Source: Candidatus Brocadiia bacterium
GTDB lineage: Bacteria; Planctomycetota; MHYJ01; JACQXL01; JACQZI01
Assembly (NCBI GenBank): GCA_020051675.1
Contig: JAGVQN010000023.1
Coordinates: forward strand, 1 to 41,587
Length of the DNA stretch: 41,587 nucleotides
Direction of reading: 5' to 3'
In this document: positions 8,947 through 37,159 of the stretch, in pieces
Numbering within the stretch: the first letter of the stretch is position 1
How the letters are laid out: every line of letters begins with the position of its first letter
Made by a program: the position numbers and the translations under genes
Notes under the pieces: generated by a model
Told to the model about the DNA's origin: nothing
Seen by the model: only the letters and a program-made list of their open reading frames with translations
Database searches by the model: none

Positions 8947-9181
8947 AAATCACCTCCTCTTTTTTCGCCACGAAGGCACTAAGACACTAATTAATTCTTC
9001 GTGCCTTTGTGTCTTAGTGGCTAACTTATATAGCAAATACCGTGCCAACTGCAGAGCAATCTGCCACAGAGACACAGAGAACACAGAGGAAACACCTGAA
9101 TATCATTTTAATCAACATTTAAGCCCATCAATCACTATTTATATCTATTAATCTGTGTTTAAATCCGTGTAATCTGTGTAA

Positions 9182-9202
9182 CCTGCCTCGCCGTCAGGTG
9201 GG
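9182..9202. repeat. Degenerate copy of the CCTGCCTCGCCGGCAGG palindrome
   Basis: Reads CCTGCCTCGCCGTCAGGTGG, differing at few positions from the copies inside the HEAT-repeat gene (17044-17065) and the GltD-like gene (36226-36246). Here it is intergenic. Confidence 0.6.
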
Positions 9203-9367: not shown

Positions 9368-11089
9368 GTAAATGTTCACTCATCCCCGTGTTATATACTA
9401 TAGAAGGCTTTTAAATACCAACATTTTTTCCGATAATATAATCATGACCGGTTCGGTTAACCTTTTACTGGAAAAGGCTCAGAACATCAAACCATCGGAA
9501 GTATTTTCATACGAAACACAAGATTTTAGAATTCTTTATGAGCGCGAATATTGGGCACACCAAGAGACTAAAAGAGGACTCCAAAAAGCCAAAGACCATA
9601 TTGAATATCTGGAAACCAAGATTCAAAAACTAGAAGGTGATATTGCCTATCTTAAGAAATTATTCTTTGATAAAAAGACAGAAGTTAATCAAAAGCCCGC
9701 TACAGAGACTAACCCGACTGCAGGCGCCAAACCGCACGGCGCTCAGACAGGCCATCCAGCGCATCATCGGAAGATTCCTTGGCATTTACCGACTCAAGAT
9801 GTGATTCATTCTCTCCAAGAAAAAGATTGTTTTTGCTCGGACTGTGGCTTACCTTTAGTAACTTTAGAAGCAGAAGAAATTTCATATGAGGTTACCACGG
9901 AAACTCGCTACATTTTGCTGAGACACCGCCGGGGAAAATATAAGAAAACCTGTCAATGTTCTCACCCGATTGTAACAGCGCCTGGACCGGTCAAACTCCT
10001 GCCCAAAGGGCTATATAGCGCGGATTTTTGGATTCAGGTGTTACTGGATAAATACGCTTATAGCATGCCGCTAAGCAGACAAATCTGTCGGATGCAATCG
10101 GCCGGAGTAAATATATCTAATGGCGTGCTGACCGACGGCTTATCGCGTTTGTCACCGATGTTAAAACCGTTATATGACCTGATGACCGGACGGCAAAATT
10201 GCCTTTGAAAAACTGGTACATGCAGATGAAACCGGCTGGTGGAATTGGGCTGGCCAATATTATTTAGAAAGCCCTGGGAAGAAGCCTCAACAGTGGCTCT
10301 GGGGATTCTTCTCTCAATTATATCATATCTTTGTGATTGACCCCAGCCGTGGGGCAAAAGTAATCAAAAAGACATTGGGGCAAGGTCCCGAACAAACCAT
10401 CATTCCAACCATATTTTGTGACCGTTATCGAGCATATCAGACCTGTGGTAATACATTAGCTTTTTGTTGGGCGCATGTGAGGCGGGATTTTATAAAACTT
10501 AAAACGAAATACCCAACCGATAATCTTATATCTACTTGGGCAAATACATGGATAAGTTTAATCGGGGACATGTATGCTCTGAATAAGTTACGTCTGGCTC
10601 ATTTGAGAGACCCGCCAATGTTTGAAGCGTTTCAAAAGCAGCTACAAGAAGTGCTGGAGAAAATGCGGAATCTAATGAATCCAGATGTCTATCGGACAAA
10701 GATTCATTTGGCACAGATTAAGAGTATGCGGCATCATTGGTCCGGTTTGACTCTATTTATCAGCGACCCGGAGATTCCCTTAGACAATAATTTGGCTGAA
10801 CGTGCTCTGCGTACTCCGGTGGTAGGTAGGAAAAACTTCTATGGCAATCATTCCGACAGGGCGGCTGAATCTACGGCTATATTTTACTCGGTGATAGCCA
10901 CCTGCAAATTACATAAAATTGAGCCTAAGAAATTCCTGAAACGCTATTTAACGACGTATACGCTAAAAGAATCCCATGCTTTAACCCAAGAACAAATGGA
11001 ATCTTTTCTCCCTCATAAATATGCCCGGATTTATCCAGAAGATATAATCAAATCCTAAGATTTCCATACGGTCATCAGTGAACATTTAC
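9368..11089 (+). mobile_element. IS66-family insertion sequence, single-transposase (ISBst12-like) type
   Basis: A 1722-bp element. Left end GTAAATGTTCACT (9368-9380) and right end AGTGAACATTTAC (11077-11089) are perfect 13-bp inverted repeats, with weaker similarity continuing inward to about 24 bp. Ends beginning GTAA and an 8-bp target duplication are typical of IS66. Only the tnpC-type transposase is present; tnpA and tnpB are absent, as in the ISBst12 subgroup. Intact ends and perfect duplication indicate a fairly recent insertion even though the transposase frame is broken. Confidence 0.92.
9444..11058 (+). pseudogene. tnpC: IS66-family transposase TnpC, frameshifted
   Basis: DDE transposase in two frames. 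The first part runs to a stop at 10206-10208; the same protein continues in the +1 frame from about 10189 (DGKIAFEKLVHADETGWW) to the stop at 11056-11058. One extra base near 10185-10191 explains the break. Start: an in-frame ATG at 9372 lies inside the terminal repeat, so ATG 9444 (MTGSVNLLLEK) is preferred. Features: N-terminal coiled coil (QKLEGDIAYLKKLFF), IS66 zinc-binding region (CFCSDCG ... CQCSHP), then catalytic residues: D in HADETGWW, D in the CDRYRAY region, E in DNNLAERALR. As it stands it should not give a full transposase unless ribosomes shift frame; an assembly error is also possible. Confidence 0.88.
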
Positions 11090-11126: not shown

Positions 11127-11180
11127 GGGGGGCGGGAGGGTGGGGAGGGGGCAGCCTCACCCCCACCTCCATATCCCGCC
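11127..11180. other. G-rich tract (possible G-quadruplex) with C-rich partner
   Basis: 11127-11151 holds five G runs of 3 to 6 separated by single bases, a strong quadruplex-type pattern on the plus strand. GGCGGGA (11131-11137) is matched by TCCCGCC (11174-11180), so a long imperfect hairpin is also possible. It directly precedes the 22-bp C-rich repeat array. Confidence 0.55.
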
Positions 11181-11508
11181 ACCCCAGCTACGTGATACAG
11201 CCACCCCAGTTAGTCCATATACCCACCCCGATTAGACCATACACTCACCCTAGTTAGTCTATACACTCACCCCCATTAGTCTATATACCCACCCCAGTTA
11301 GTCCATACACTCACCCTCATTAGTCTATATACCCACCCCGATTAGTCCATACACTCACCCCCATTAGTCTATACACCCACCCCAGTTAGTCCATACAGCC
11401 ACCCTCATTAGACCATACACCCACCCCAGATACGTAATGCACCCACCCCGGTTAGACCATGCCCCCACCCCGGCTACGTAATATACCCACCCCTACGGGC
11501 GGTTGGCA
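11179..11508. repeat. 22-bp tandem repeat array, about 14 units plus a degenerate one
   Basis: Units of exactly 22 bp begin CCACCCC or TCACCCC and continue with a variable core of two kinds: TTAGTCYATAYAC or TTAGACCATACAC in most units, and CTACGTRATA-type in units 1, 12 and 14. The last unit (11487-11508) is degenerate. There are no spacers, so it is not a CRISPR array. No open frame across it looks like a protein. Together with 11098-11178 and 11509-11842 it makes a 745-bp gene-free region. Confidence 0.85.
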
Positions 11509-14825: not shown

Positions 14826-14905
14826 TACACGAAAACACAGAATTGCTGCTCGAAGACACGGAATTTTTCGTGCTTTCGTGTATTAAGTTTCGTGCTTTCG
14901 TGTAA
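14826..14905 (-). repeat. CACGAA-type repeat, right flank of GxxExxY gene, partly inverted
   Basis: Starts with ACACGAAAACACAG in the same orientation as the left block, then TTTCGTGCTTTCGTGT twice, which is the inverted orientation of the left-flank motif. Confidence 0.65.
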
Positions 14906-14920
14906 CGGAAAGGAGAATAT

Positions 14921-16252
14921 ATGATAAACAACACGCCACTTAGAACGGGGGAGCGGGGCGCGGCACTTTTCATTTCTCTAATCGTCCTCTTCATGGTTCT
15001 GGCTATTTCGGTTTCTTACTCGGAACTCACGTTTACCCAAAACAAAGCGGTCAACAGCGCGATTAACTACGCCACCGCCTCGGAAACCGTCATGGCAGGC
15101 TTTGACATGACCAGGGTGGTTTTAGGAACAGGCCACTCCAACGGCTGGGATGACGAGCTGGTTACCAGTAATAATAACAAAGCTACTTATTCCGAAGGCG
15201 ATGCCCCACTCACAGTCGGAACATCAACCGCCGGATTCCAGTGGGCGCGTAAAATAGCCTATGAAAATGGGTGGTTTGTTACCGAGATTATAGATAATAA
15301 TGACGGGGACGGCGACCTCCTGAATGATTTTGACAGTAAAGTAATTATAAAAGTCACCTCCCAGCTTCCGGATGGCTCAATCAGCGAAGTGCAATCACTT
15401 GTGCGTTACCTGCCTCCGGTTTACGAGCCGGATACGGCTATCGTAACCAACGGCACACTCCAGCTTGACGGCAACGCCACGATTACCGGAACCAACGGGA
15501 CCATCTATGCCAATGATGACGTTGAAATAAAAGGAGCGGCAGTGGTTTTGCAGGATGTCTATTCAACCGGCACGGTTACCGGAGATGAAAAAGTCGGCGG
15601 GACGTGTTACGAAGGCGCCGCGCCCACGGACGTCCCGGGAATCACCCCGTCCGACTATGCCAACCTCATGGATTATCGCATGGCAAGCGACGGCAAGATA
15701 TACACCGCGGCAGGCGCTTTGGTCGGCAATGCCGCTGCCGGGCAGGTGCTGGGCTGGGATTTCATCACCGCCGGAGGCAAAAACGAATGGAAATATAACG
15801 CCGCCGCCTGCAACAACGGAACTTTTTACGTTGAAGGCGCGAGAGATGTTGATATCGCCGGCTCGCCGGGCAGTATCGCCGTTCCCTGGCAATTAACGCT
15901 CCTGGCAACGGGAAATGTCAAAATCACCGGCTCGCCGGTAATGACGCCGGATGAAACCGGGGTATGTATCATGGCGGGAAAGGATATATCCTGCGCCGGT
16001 AATCTTACGGTTCTTGATGGCGTGGTCGGCTGCCACGAGCAAATGGAAATAGCCGGTTCAGTTAACATCCAGGGAAACCTTGTCATTGAAGACGCAACCG
16101 ATTCCGTAGGAAGCCTGGTAACCCTTAAACCAAATGCCTTTGACGTCGCCATCGGCGGTTCAGCCATTATTAATTATAACGGAGGCTTGACCACCTTCCT
16201 GGAAGCCGGCGACCCGTGTCTTGTAATAATGGGCTTAAAAATAATAAGATGA
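14921..16252 (+). CDS. PilX-like membrane-anchored protein with beta-solenoid-like body (paralogue 2)
   Basis: 443 residues, same layout and length as the protein at 13041-14369: N-terminal helix (GAALFISLIVLFMVLAISVSY), shared blocks such as GH-x-x-x-WDDEL, FQWAR and DNNDGDGDLLND, the PGSIAVPW / PGSAEIPW block, and an ending rich in short strands. AAAGGAG lies at a good distance before ATG 14921. It contains Cys residues in the solenoid part (CYEGAAP, CNNGTFYVEG) that paralogue 1 lacks. It overlaps the HEAT-protein gene by 4 bp. The pair arose by tandem duplication, and the GxxExxY unit now lies between the copies. Role as for paralogue 1. Confidence 0.76.
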   Translation: MINNTPLRTGERGAALFISLIVLFMVLAISVSYSELTFTQNKAVNSAINYATASETVMAGFDMTRVVLGTGHSNGWDDELVTSNNNKATYSEGDAPLTVGTSTAGFQWARKIAYENGWFVTEIIDNNDGDGDLLNDFDSKVIIKVTSQLPDGSISEVQSLVRYLPPVYEPDTAIVTNGTLQLDGNATITGTNGTIYANDDVEIKGAAVVLQDVYSTGTVTGDEKVGGTCYEGAAPTDVPGITPSDYANLMDYRMASDGKIYTAAGALVGNAAAGQVLGWDFITAGGKNEWKYNAAACNNGTFYVEGARDVDIAGSPGSIAVPWQLTLLATGNVKITGSPVMTPDETGVCIMAGKDISCAGNLTVLDGVVGCHEQMEIAGSVNIQGNLVIEDATDSVGSLVTLKPNAFDVAIGGSAIINYNGGLTTFLEAGDPCLVIMGLKIIR

Positions 16253-17772
16253 GAAACAAAATTCATTTGTCAGTTGTTAGTTGTCAGTTGTTAGTTGTCA
16301 GCTGTTTGTTGTTAACAGGATTGTTAGCATTTGCATATATCGTCCCGTTGTCCGCGGATACCGTGACCTTAAAAAACGGCTCAACACTGGAAGGCATCGT
16401 CGTTTCGGAAGACGAAGAATCCATCATCCTTGATGCGGATGATATGAAAATGACCATTAAAAAGAAGGATATCGAATCCATTACCAAATCCGAATATATA
16501 CCGCCTTCGGAAAGCTATAAACCGCCCGAGGTAAAACCAAAAAACCCACTCCCCGCTGAGATTAATCCCGTAAAGCCTATTACACCCTCAGACTCAACAA
16601 AACCTGATTTCTCTTCAGATTCCGGCGCAAACAACATATCCGGAATCGCCTTAAGCGATGAGGGCAAGACTCCTGAACAAATAGAGATAAACAATCTCTT
16701 GAGGAAACTCGTCGATAAGAACGAAAAAGAACCATGGAAAATATCGCCTGAATTAACCGAAAAAGGAAAAAGCGATACCGCCTACCTAATATCACTGATG
16801 GCCTTACCTTCAAACGACGCCAATATTAGACGCTGGATTATTTACTCCCTGGGGCAGATAATGCAAAGCAGCAGTCCCGCCTTGGCGGAAACCGCAGCAG
16901 CGTCGGGAGAAAAACCCACAGACAATGAACAAATCATCAATGCGCTCAAATTGGTATTATCCGACCCGGATGAAATAATCCGCTCTGCGGCAGTGGAAGC
17001 GCTCGGTCATTTTAAGGCACCTGAAAAAACAGCGTATTTAAAACCTGCCTCGCCGGCAGGCAGGGAGGAAAAAGATGTTTTAGGACAGCTTAAAAACCTG
17101 ATGAAATCAATTATGGAAACGGATACTTCTGTTTCCGTCCGTTTCCAGGCGATTAACAACCTCGCCGCCTGGTATGATTTTTCCGCGATTCCGCCTTTAA
17201 TTAAAGCGCTCGGCAATGAGGACGGCACAATCCGTTCGGCCGCTTCAGACGCGCTGGTAAAATTCATCAACCTGCCAGAAGAAGAGCAAGCAAAATACAC
17301 AAACCCGCCTGCCGCCGAGGCAAGAATCACTTATGATATCATCCCGATGCTCCTGCCAAAGCTAAGGGAGGATAAATTGCTCATCCGCAAGGAAATACTG
17401 GCTATTCTGGGTAAGGTAAAGGATAAACGCGCCTTTGACACTTTAAAGCAATTGATTGCCGACCGAGACCCGGAAATCAGGATGCTCGCCGTGGTTGCTT
17501 TGGGAAGCATGGTGGATAAAGAGACCGTTGATGTATTGCTTGATATGATGGAAAACGACCCTGATAAAACAACCAGGATACAAATACTGCAGGTATTGCA
17601 AACCCTTAAGATGCAAGAAACAATACCGCGCATTATAGAACTCCTCAAAGACCCTGATAAAGAAATCCGCTATTCCGCCTCGCGGGCATTGCGGCAAATC
17701 ACCGGCAAGGCGCTGGGCGCCACCTATGAATTATGGAAAGACTGGTGGGATAAGCTTCAGGGGATTAAGTAA
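16249..17772 (+). CDS. Exported HEAT-repeat (PBS lyase-type) protein
   Basis: 507 residues from ATG 16249, which overlaps the previous stop by 4 bp. Signal peptide of about 35 residues ending near LSADTV; its hydrophobic core is written by a 49-nt heptamer repeat. After it comes a small beta domain (TLKNGSTLEGIVVSEDEESI), a Pro-rich linker, and from about residue 170 a series of HEAT repeats (for example IRSAAVEALGHF, IRSAASDALVKF, IRMLAVVALGSM, IRYSASRALRQI). HEAT solenoids bind other proteins, so a scaffold role beside the pilin-like proteins in the periplasm is inferred. The copy of the CCTGCCTCGCC palindrome (17044-17065) adds KPASPAGR between two HEAT units. Confidence 0.82.
   Translation: MRNKIHLSVVSCQLLVVSCLLLTGLLAFAYIVPLSADTVTLKNGSTLEGIVVSEDEESIILDADDMKMTIKKKDIESITKSEYIPPSESYKPPEVKPKNPLPAEINPVKPITPSDSTKPDFSSDSGANNISGIALSDEGKTPEQIEINNLLRKLVDKNEKEPWKISPELTEKGKSDTAYLISLMALPSNDANIRRWIIYSLGQIMQSSSPALAETAAASGEKPTDNEQIINALKLVLSDPDEIIRSAAVEALGHFKAPEKTAYLKPASPAGREEKDVLGQLKNLMKSIMETDTSVSVRFQAINNLAAWYDFSAIPPLIKALGNEDGTIRSAASDALVKFINLPEEEQAKYTNPPAAEARITYDIIPMLLPKLREDKLLIRKEILAILGKVKDKRAFDTLKQLIADRDPEIRMLAVVALGSMVDKETVDVLLDMMENDPDKTTRIQILQVLQTLKMQETIPRIIELLKDPDKEIRYSASRALRQITGKALGATYELWKDWWDKLQGIK
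16267..16315 (+). repeat. Heptanucleotide repeat forming the signal-peptide core
   Basis: Seven 7-nt units: TTGTCAG and TTGTTAG alternating five times, then CTGTTTG and TTGTTAA. Three units make seven codons, so the protein repeats as LSVVSCQ / LLVVSCL. Confidence 0.9.
17042..17065 (+). repeat. CCTGCCTCGCCGGCAGGC palindrome inside the HEAT gene
   Basis: GC-rich palindrome read here as K-P-A-S-P-A-G-R. The same DNA string occurs in the GltD-like gene at 36224-36246, read in another frame. Confidence 0.8.
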
Positions 17773-33252: not shown

Positions 33253-33290
33253 AACGCGAAGGCACGAAACTAATAACGCGAAAGCACCCC
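33251..33290. repeat. Short CACGAA-type repeat between metallophosphoesterase and acsC
   Basis: AACGCGAAGGCACGAAAC and AACGCGAAAGCACCCC, the same kind of short-period sequence as around the GxxExxY gene. It fills the gap right before the ATG at 33252. Confidence 0.5.
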
Positions 33291-34883: not shown

Positions 34884-35468
34884 ATGATTGAAATAAGATT
34901 CCACGGACGAGGCGGACAGGGAGCGGTGGTTGCCTCGGAAATACTCGCCAACGCGTTTTTCTTCGAAGATAATTCAGTCCAAACATTCCCGGAATTCGGC
35001 GTGGAACGCCGCGGCGCTCCGGTAGCCGCTTATTTAAGGATTGATAAATCACAGGTCCTGGTCCGTTGCAAGATATACGAGCCGGACCATATCATTGTCC
35101 TTGACCCGACACTGCTTAACGCGGTTGATGTCACTGTCGGATTAAAGCCCGGCGGCTGGATTCTGGTTAACAGCAATCATAAACCTGATGAATTGGGATT
35201 CCCCTCTAAATTCCGCGTGGCAACCATAGACGCAACCAGCCTGGCGATAAAATACCACCTGGGACCGAGGACTTCCCCTATCGTCAACACCGCCATACTC
35301 GGGGCGTTTTCCAATATCAGCCAATTCATGCCGATTAAAGTATCAATGAAAAGTATCTGCGGCGCCATTAAGAAAAAAGTCCCGATTCAAAGGGAAAATA
35401 ATATCAAAGCCGCCAAAGAAGCTTATAACATGGTGATAATTGATAAGGAACTATGCAAAGCAAAATAA
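34884..35468 (+). CDS. porG: 2-oxoacid:ferredoxin oxidoreductase gamma subunit
   Basis: 194 residues. First gene of a four-gene operon (gamma, fused delta/flavoprotein, alpha, beta) for CoA-dependent oxidation of a 2-oxoacid (pyruvate or a related acid) with ferredoxin. Typical gamma motifs: [15 protein letters not shown] at the N-terminus, [13 protein letters not shown], and [16 protein letters not shown]. Start ATG 34884 (MIEIRFHG) matches family N-termini; longer in-frame starts lie in the promoter. It overlaps the next gene by 16 bp. The subunit type cannot tell pyruvate from 2-oxoisovalerate. Confidence 0.92.
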
Positions 35469-37159
35469 AAGTTATTCCGACGACCCTAAAGGTTAAAGAC
35501 CTTCCGCCGACCGCCATTTCTATGTCCAATATGCTCTTTAATAAAACCGGCTCCTGGCGTAATTATAAACCTGTCTATGATGAAAAACTGCCGCCCTGCA
35601 ACGCAACCTGCCCGTCAGGCGAAAAGATACAGGGCTATCTCTACCTCGTAAAGAATAACAAATTTGCCGAGGCATGGCAGCTCATCAAACAGGATAATCC
35701 ACTGCCGGCCGTCTGCGGGCGCGTCTGCTTCCACCCATGCGAAGTGGAATGCAACCGCAACGATTATGACGAGTCTGTCGGAATCCATAATGTCGAACGC
35801 CTTATCGGCGATTACGGACTCAGGCATAATTTGCGTGTCAAAATAGGGATTAAAAAGAAACAGCAAATCGCTATTATCGGCGGCGGACCGGCCGGAATAT
35901 CTGCGGCTTATCACCTCGCACGGATGGGTTATAAGCCGACTATATTCGAAGCGGAAAGGCAACTGGGCGGCATGCTCCAATATGGAATCCCCTCTTACCG
36001 CCTGCCTAAAAACATATTGCAAAAAGAAATAAATTCCATCATAAAAATGGGCGTGAAGGTAAAAACCGGAATGCGCGTCGGCAAGAACCTCTTTATCGAA
36101 GAACTCGCCAAGAAATACCATGCCGTCCTCATCGCCACCGGAGCATATAAGGAAAGAAACCTCGATATCCCTGGAGAGGAAGCACGCGGCGTAATCGGCG
36201 CGCTCGATTTCCTGCATGAAGCAAACCTGCCTCGCCGGCAGGCGGGTTCCGGGAAAAAGCCCACAATATCCAAAGACGTCGTTATCATCGGAGGCGGCAA
36301 CGCGGCAATGGACGCGGCCAGGAGCGCCTTAAGAATGGGCGCTCATCCAAAGGTCATCTACCGCCGGACCAGGAACGAAATGCCCGCCATCCCGGATGAA
36401 ATACGCGATACCGAAGAGGAAAAAATAGATTTCATCTTCTTGGCCGCCCCGGTAAAAGTAATCACTAAAAACAATAAAACTGTCGCGCTAGAATGTATCA
36501 GGATGAAACTCGGTTCAGCCGATTCTTCCGGGCGCCGTAAACCCATCCCGGTTAAAGGCTCCAACTTCCGTATAAAAACCGGCACCATCATAAAAGCCAT
36601 CGGTGAATCTCCCGAAACAAGCTTTATCCCGGCAAGTCTCCTTAAAGACAATCTGGTCTGCACAGATAAATGGGGAATGACCGCACAAAACAATATATTC
36701 GCGGCGGGCGATGCAGTTACCGGTCCGAAAACGGTTGTGGAAGCCATCGGCGCTGGCAAACGCTCCGCACAGGCAATTGATAAATACGTAAGAACCGGGA
36801 AAGTTACGCATACGGAAATACCAGAAGTAAAACCCGTCCGGTTTGAACAGCTCAACACTGCTTATTTCGAACACGCCCCGCGCGTTTCGATGCCCCACCT
36901 CGAATTCAAGCAGCGGGTTAAGAGCACCAAAGAGGTGTATCTCGGCTACAAGCCCAATGAAGCCATAACCGAATCAGATCGCTGTTTTAGCTGCGGAGTC
37001 TGTAACTTCTGCGATAACTGCTGGGTCTTCTGCCCGGATATGGCCGTAATAAAGAAGAAGAATAAATACGAATTCAATTACGATTACTGCAAAGGATGCG
37101 GCATCTGCGCCTCTGAATGCCCGCACAACGTAATTTCATTAGTGGAAGAAAAGAAATGA
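35453..37159 (+). CDS. GltD/NfnB-like flavoprotein fused to a 2x[4Fe-4S] ferredoxin (POR delta)
   Basis: 568 residues. N-terminal cluster region CNATCPSG ... CGRVCFHPCEVEC as in GltD; FAD site GGGPAGISAAYHLARMGY (about 142-160); NAD(P)H site GGGNAAMDAARSALRMGA (about 282-300); redox-site region FAAGDAVTGPKTVVEA; C-terminal ferredoxin with two clusters (CFSCGVCNFC ... and CKGCGICASECP) like the delta subunit of 2-oxoacid oxidoreductases. It likely passes electrons between the oxidoreductase's ferredoxin clusters and NAD(P)H within the complex. AAGGA before ATG 35453. A palindromic repeat (36226-36246) adds LPRRQAGSG between the two nucleotide domains. The next gene overlaps by 4 bp. Confidence 0.9.
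   Translation: MQSKIKVIPTTLKVKDLPPTAISMSNMLFNKTGSWRNYKPVYDEKLPPCNATCPSGEKIQGYLYLVKNNKFAEAWQLIKQDNPLPAVCGRVCFHPCEVECNRNDYDESVGIHNVERLIGDYGLRHNLRVKIGIKKKQQIAIIGGGPAGISAAYHLARMGYKPTIFEAERQLGGMLQYGIPSYRLPKNILQKEINSIIKMGVKVKTGMRVGKNLFIEELAKKYHAVLIATGAYKERNLDIPGEEARGVIGALDFLHEANLPRRQAGSGKKPTISKDVVIIGGGNAAMDAARSALRMGAHPKVIYRRTRNEMPAIPDEIRDTEEEKIDFIFLAAPVKVITKNNKTVALECIRMKLGSADSSGRRKPIPVKGSNFRIKTGTIIKAIGESPETSFIPASLLKDNLVCTDKWGMTAQNNIFAAGDAVTGPKTVVEAIGAGKRSAQAIDKYVRTGKVTHTEIPEVKPVRFEQLNTAYFEHAPRVSMPHLEFKQRVKSTKEVYLGYKPNEAITESDRCFSCGVCNFCDNCWVFCPDMAVIKKKNKYEFNYDYCKGCGICASECPHNVISLVEEKK
36224..36246 (+). repeat. CCTGCCTCGCCGGCAGGC palindrome inside the GltD-like gene
   Basis: Same 18-nt palindrome as in the HEAT-repeat gene (17044), with matching A's in front. 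Here the frame reads N-L-P-R-R-Q-A-G. Confidence 0.8.

Follow-up and report, generated by a model that had tools for sequence, protein, structure and literature searches.

A 21-nucleotide palindrome that probably spreads as a very small mobile element in genomes of several bacterial phyla

A contig of 41,587 nucleotides (nt) from a Candidatus Brocadiia bacterium (JAGVQN010000023.1, assembly GCA_020051675.1), referred to here as the window, contains four copies of a 21-nt palindrome with the pattern CCYGCCT-N7-AGGCRGG. Three of the copies lie within protein-coding genes, and all three are absent from the orthologous genes of a second species of the same genus. We propose, with a probability of about 0.85, that the palindrome is a very small mobile element, which is copied to new places and inserts with base-exact ends and without duplication of the target. 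The proposal is based on sites that differ by net 21 nt between relatives, on the lack of duplication, on the use of three codon phases, on targets that include other copies of the element, hairpins, and heptad repeats, and on genomes in which nearly every copy is of one variant. It appears to rank among the smallest mobile DNA elements known.

Copies of the palindrome in the window

The gene of a 518-residue HEAT-repeat protein (positions 16216–17772, + strand; Pfam HEAT_2, 8.9e-40) hosts a copy with perfect 7-bp arms (CCTGCCTCGCCGGCAGGCAGG, 17044–17064), which adds the peptide PASPAGR in codon phase 0. Another copy (CCTGCCTCGCCGGCAGGCGGG, 36226–36246) adds LPRRQAG to a 568-residue GltD/NfnB-like FAD/NAD oxidoreductase with a ferredoxin domain (35453–37159, + strand; Pfam Pyr_redox_2, 3.5e-34, and Fer4_20, 3.1e-21), whose open reading frame (ORF) reads across the copy as NLPRRQAG in phase 2. 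A preliminary description of this DNA had claimed that one palindrome is present in these two genes in differing frames, which agrees with phases 0 and 2. It had also listed a degenerate copy at position 9182; this copy exists (CCTGCCTCGCCGTCAGGTGGG, 9182–9202, one arm mismatch), but it is intergenic, and all ORFs covering it have at most 71 codons. An ORF whose C-terminus matches an IS66-type DDE transposase (9372–10208) is located just downstream of the intergenic copy. A third genic copy had been overlooked and was found using a degenerate pattern. It is a decayed form (CCCGCCTGCCGCCGAGGCAAG, 17304–17324), located in the same HEAT gene, to which it adds the seven residues NPPAAEA in phase 2.

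The string AAACCTGCCTCGCCGGCAGGC occurs without mismatch at positions 17041–17061 and 36223–36243 and with three mismatches at 9179–9199, whereas 0 matches are expected from 100 dinucleotide shuffles. Folding of the element as RNA produced a hairpin of about −11 kcal/mol, and its folding as single-stranded DNA was modest (z of about −1.4). A search of the window against Rfam matched only a tRNA and returned nothing for the element. Counting in the genome from which the window originates (1.2 Mb, 57% complete), as the preliminary description had suggested, placed the palindrome far above expectation. There were five exact 18-mers and none in the reversed control, and nine copies of the 23-mer with up to three mismatches, again with none in the control. 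The degenerate pattern with up to two mismatches gave 98 strand-rows, compared to 46 for the control.

Presence and absence of the element in two congeneric species

The second species of the genus (genome G001, 97% complete) contains orthologues of the HEAT protein (81% identical) and of the GltD-like protein (93% identical). At all three genic sites, the DNA of G001 is shorter by exactly 21 nt and the protein by exactly seven residues. The first copy in the HEAT protein reads LK[PASPAGR]EEKD compared to LK-EEKD in G001, the second KYT[NPPAAEA]RITY compared to KYT-KITY, and the copy in the GltD-like protein HEAN[LPRRQAG]SGKK compared to HEVN-SGKK. The corresponding empty sites of G001, with the junction marked by a slash, are TTAAAA/GAGGA, ACAAA/AATCAC, and GAA/TTCCGG. 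Orthologues with segments of equal length would have spoken against an insertion, and the empty sites support the earlier suggestion of a DNA element that enters genes, leaves them intact, and adds peptides. The peptide of the GltD-like protein is also absent from the orthologues L034 and L035 (57–58% identity) and from the aligned homologues of solved structure, PDB 9bov and 9n5u. The reciprocal case occurs in the same gene, where G001 has a 21-nt palindrome of its own, CCTGCCCGACAGTCAGGCGGG (junction AGCAAA/TACGAA), which is absent from the window.

We compared the joined flanks of 28 further copies, which were picked mostly from long ORFs and are therefore uninformative about the fraction of copies located in genes. 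Eight of these sites displayed a net absence of 21 nt (C55:9087, C76:3880, C76:3911, C114:150, C114:888, G001 C41:1546, G001 C7:221246, and a paralogue of G001 C12:6695). The gap was imperfectly placed by the alignment at C114:888 and C7:221246, for which the net length was counted. The copies at C76:3880 and C76:3911 are ten bases apart, and both are absent from the other species. In total, twelve sites differ by net 21 nt over the two genomes. A single site, C37/C38, is filled in both species, and its copy is diverged; the site C48:8209 is unclean, with a net difference of 30 nt. No target duplication was found at the clean junctions of empty and filled pairs, and the insertions use all three codon phases. 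Most of the sites that differ between the two species were probably created by gain of the element rather than by its precise loss, as indicated by the repeat nature of the insert.

Insertion sites of the element

The flanks of 116 named instances (L107–L221) were used for the statistics of insertion sites. In 89% of the instances, C or T follows the element at position +1 (chi2 112); the base immediately before the element is rarely T, and the flanks are otherwise unconserved. When the flanks were joined, six cases yielded another 21-nt element that had been interrupted near its centre, compared to 0.2 with shuffled flanks, and nesting inside another copy was also evident by eye in L091 and L073 of G001. 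Stems of at least 6 bp formed by the flanking sequences were present in 23 instances, compared to 7.4 in shuffled flanks (maximum of 14 in 40 shuffles). Direct repeats with a period of seven (caatatc, caaagtc, caacccc, and others) flank 17 of the 116 instances. The corresponding value is 0.4 in shuffles, and the frequency at random positions is 0.5% (1.2% outside ORFs). Period seven alone stands out, since periods six and nine were not observed and period eight was found three times.

The flanking heptads suggested a 7-bp target-site duplication, which was rejected for the one testable case, C76:3880. Its unfilled site in G001 already contains the heptad repeat, and in that case the heptads therefore reflect a target preference and not a duplication.

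The preference for hairpins, other copies, and slippage-prone period-seven repeats is also what would be expected if there were no dedicated enzyme, and hairpins at stalled replication forks were copied by template switching, so that the palindrome spreads because it forms a good hairpin. However, the exact 21-nt ends at unrelated sites, together with the strong preference for C or T at position +1, suggest an enzyme, and the occurrence of the same sequence in distant phyla requires transfer or a shared recogniser. We consider this enzyme-free copying improbable.

Distribution across phyla

A search of 257 Gb of genome contigs on both strands yielded at least 115 stretches of named genomes with the exact pattern CCTGCCTCGCCGKCAGGCRGG, for which about 0.5 matches are expected according to our own arithmetic with equal base frequencies. 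The genomes are mostly drafts, and the ORFs referred to here are open frames, not annotated genes. Carriers of the exact 21-mer belong to at least seven phyla (Bacteroidota, Patescibacteria, Omnitrophota, Elusimicrobiota, Planctomycetota, Nitrospirota, and WOR-1), and one carrier is an archaeal assembly (Bathyarchaeota). Each of 44 carrier genomes contains from one to about 40 exact copies, whereas the reversed control produced none. Among the matches listed, several genomes contain a single variant: all copies end in ...GGCGGG in G081 and in ...GGCAGG in G059, G062, and G091. One variant per genome is expected if each genome amplified its own copy. Four exact matches were found among 2.9 million viral contigs, and a plasmid search with the GltD-like protein returned nothing further.

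Numerous metagenome assemblies produced by different laboratories share the identical 21-mer, which might be an artefact of sequencing or assembly, for example a ligated oligonucleotide. Nevertheless, the element is present in genomes of isolates (Arenibacter, Zunongwangia, Aequorivita, and Agriterribacter), and the isolate Zunongwangia pacifica has many copies. Furthermore, some copies are decayed, one orthologous site is filled by a diverged copy in both species, the reading frames remain open, and the variants differ from genome to genome. The probability of an artefact is very low.

Length of the element and its behaviour in reading frames

The length of 21 nt predominates both inside and outside ORFs. 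A perfect 20-nt form, CCTGCCTGCCGGCAGGCAGG, is recurrent in L114, L118, L140, L147, L168, L185, L196, L206, and others, partly in long open frames. Long ORFs contain 53 of 118 copies of the element (45%, compared to 68% of random positions), and the copies are read in all six frames, so that the encoded peptides differ. The use of frames among the 53 coding copies is uneven, with 23 in frame +0, 12 in −2, and one in −0. Since there are fewer coding copies than at random and the frames are unevenly used, selection seems to act on the insertions, although many are tolerated. The main variant contains no stop codon in any of the six frames. The T variant (CGCCGTC) has TGA in frame −0, and no coding copy of that kind was seen among the 53.

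A sequence useful to the host, such as a protein module, a binding site, or an uptake signal, could be kept by selection, and this would account for the same core across phyla and for the uneven use of frames. It would not account for the different peptides encoded in all six frames, for close orthologues that do without the element, for the depletion in long ORFs, or for the low copy number in many genomes, and we regard it as very improbable. According to the mobile-element proposal, insertion of a seven-codon unit whose main form is stop-free in six frames would merely add a seven-residue peptide to a protein. Selection would then remove genic copies only weakly, and the element may persist as selfish DNA.

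Search for a mobilising enzyme

Several observations weigh against the proposed mobility. The case for movement is built on presence and absence in compared sequences. Outgroups, in the form of wider orthologues and PDB homologues, exist for the GltD-like gene only among the sites compared between the two species. Palindromes resembling the element also occur at lengths of 20 and 22 nt. In addition, no enzyme is linked to the element. Of 40 carrier genomes, 35 contain genes of Y1 (HUH) transposases (PF01797). Such genes are common anyway, as they occur in eight of ten relatives, and no Y1 gene was found in the remaining five carriers, which are draft genomes. The element is not enriched near the subset of the carriers' Y1 genes that was used, with 0.031 copies per kb compared to 0.043 per kb at other loci of the carriers.

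Repetitive extragenic palindromic sequences (REPs) have GTAG/CGTC feet, five subclasses of TnpA-REP have REPs around the transposase gene, and some REPs are located within ORFs (PMC6006769). In subclass 2.4, the transposase gene itself contains in-frame insertions of its REPs (PMC6006769), and REPINs are regarded as the form in which REPs replicate (PMC3116915). The palindrome could be such a REP, spread by a REP-associated tyrosine transposase (RAYT, TnpA-REP), as is assumed for the GTAG/CGTC REPs. Both are short palindromes that form hairpins, and the element resembles REPs in its duplication-free, single-strand-like targeting; REPs are likewise known within ORFs and in frame inside tnpA-REP genes (PMC3733652, PMC6006769), and most carriers have a Y1 gene. 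However, the exact 21-nt inserts start with CCY and end with RGG, without a GT[AG]G or CGTC foot, copies are not concentrated at Y1 genes, whose presence is not specific to carriers, nearly half of the copies are located inside long ORFs, and a single family extends across many phyla. An origin as a REP is thus unlikely.

A candidate link to a Y1 gene was provided by L307 from Patescibacteria, in which three 21-nt elements (1884–1925 and 2518–2538) are located within REP-like hairpins in or beside a Y1 transposase gene; the gene itself contains two of the three, arranged in tandem and in frame. The link was rejected, since the copies are nested in the REP hairpins and are not components of them, which indicates targeting rather than origin.

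The exact 21-nt ends, the lack of duplication, the hairpin form, and the hairpin targets fit a single-strand route of the HUH/Y1 type. The element might move as a single-stranded hairpin, with cleavage and rejoining in trans at DNA that is single-stranded or folded into hairpins, such as replication forks and cruciforms, and we consider this route possible rather than probable. An HUH enzyme (Y1, similar to TnpA-REP/RAYT) or a similar nuclease could carry out the reaction, which is an equally tentative suggestion, and the assignment of any given mobilising enzyme would be doubtful.

Comparison with known short repeats

Our literature search found no published description of the sequence of the element or of its peptides; subscription journals were largely outside the search, and an earlier description is possible. 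A broader search returned only precedents among REPs, Rickettsia palindromic elements (RPEs), miniature inverted-repeat transposable elements (MITEs), and mitochondrial elements. MITEs are 70–300 bp long, with the terminal inverted repeats of an insertion sequence and a target-site duplication, whereas the element has 21 nt and shows no target duplication when filled sites are compared with clean empty ones. Mitochondrial GC clusters, double-hairpin elements, and repetitive hairpin-forming elements are short mobile hairpins, which are non-coding and have no known enzyme. They belong to organelle genomes, and the likeness to them is by description and does not imply a common origin.

Small dispersed repeats (SDRs) of cyanobacteria, reportedly described by Elhai et al. 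in 2008 (Genome Res 18:1484), are the nearest in size. To our knowledge, SDRs are not one family over many phyla. They have been characterised as about 20 bp long and possibly mobile (PMC2884548). The element is similarly dispersed, gene-less, and about 20 nt long, its insertions are polymorphic between relatives, and its mobility is likewise proposed. SDRs are from another phylum, and the likeness is one of description, not of sequence.

RPEs are palindromic DNA of about 150 bp, inserted in frame in unrelated genes and encoding conserved peptides (PMC10969869), although two of them, RPE-4 and RPE-6, have been identified as short REPs of the CGTC type (PMC3733652). The preliminary description had likened the palindrome to RPEs. 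The likeness extends to the in-frame presence of a palindrome in unrelated protein genes (twice in the HEAT gene, in the GltD-like gene, and at the eight further net-21-nt sites). It ends there, since RPEs of about 100–150 bp share a conserved peptide and belong to one genus, whereas the 21-nt element has no single conserved peptide, is read in six frames, and occurs in many phyla. The element acts like an RPE or a cyanobacterial SDR, but is without features that define RPEs and REPs.

Other features of the window

The start of the HEAT gene (about 16290–16345) contains a heptanucleotide array (TCAGTTGT/TTAGTTGT) encoding SVVSCQLLVVSCLLL in an apparent signal peptide, and the protein is seven residues longer there than its G001 counterpart. 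The two proteins also differ by about 11 residues at 16870–16910, where a second short palindrome-like stretch, CCCGCCTTGGCGGA, is possibly another small palindrome family. The neighbours of the GltD-like gene are pyruvate:ferredoxin oxidoreductase genes. Another dispersed repeat, GTGCTTTCGTGT.../ACGCGAAGGCACGAAAC, has inverted copies at 14870–14903 and 33254–33287 and forms a large array in G001, next to the counterpart of the gene cluster that lies downstream from the GltD-like gene. At positions 11135–11508, a 22-nt unit is repeated in tandem about 17 times.

Implications

The complete model, to which we give slightly less than an even chance, is that of one gene-less 21-nt family, present in at least seven bacterial phyla and one archaeal assembly, which has been amplifying recently, is tolerated in genes owing to its seven-codon length and stop-free frames, targets hairpins, its own copies, and heptad arrays, and is moved by machinery outside the known REP/RAYT or MITE route. 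If true, few known mobile elements would be as short as the palindrome, and we know of no described REP, RPE, or SDR family with such a reach across phyla. The element would be a general and countable source of seven-residue insertions in conserved proteins, and odd inserts such as PASPAGR and LPRRQAG in proteins of uncultured bacteria may be explained by it. The availability of isolates with many copies, such as Zunongwangia pacifica, would make it testable how gene-less hairpins move.
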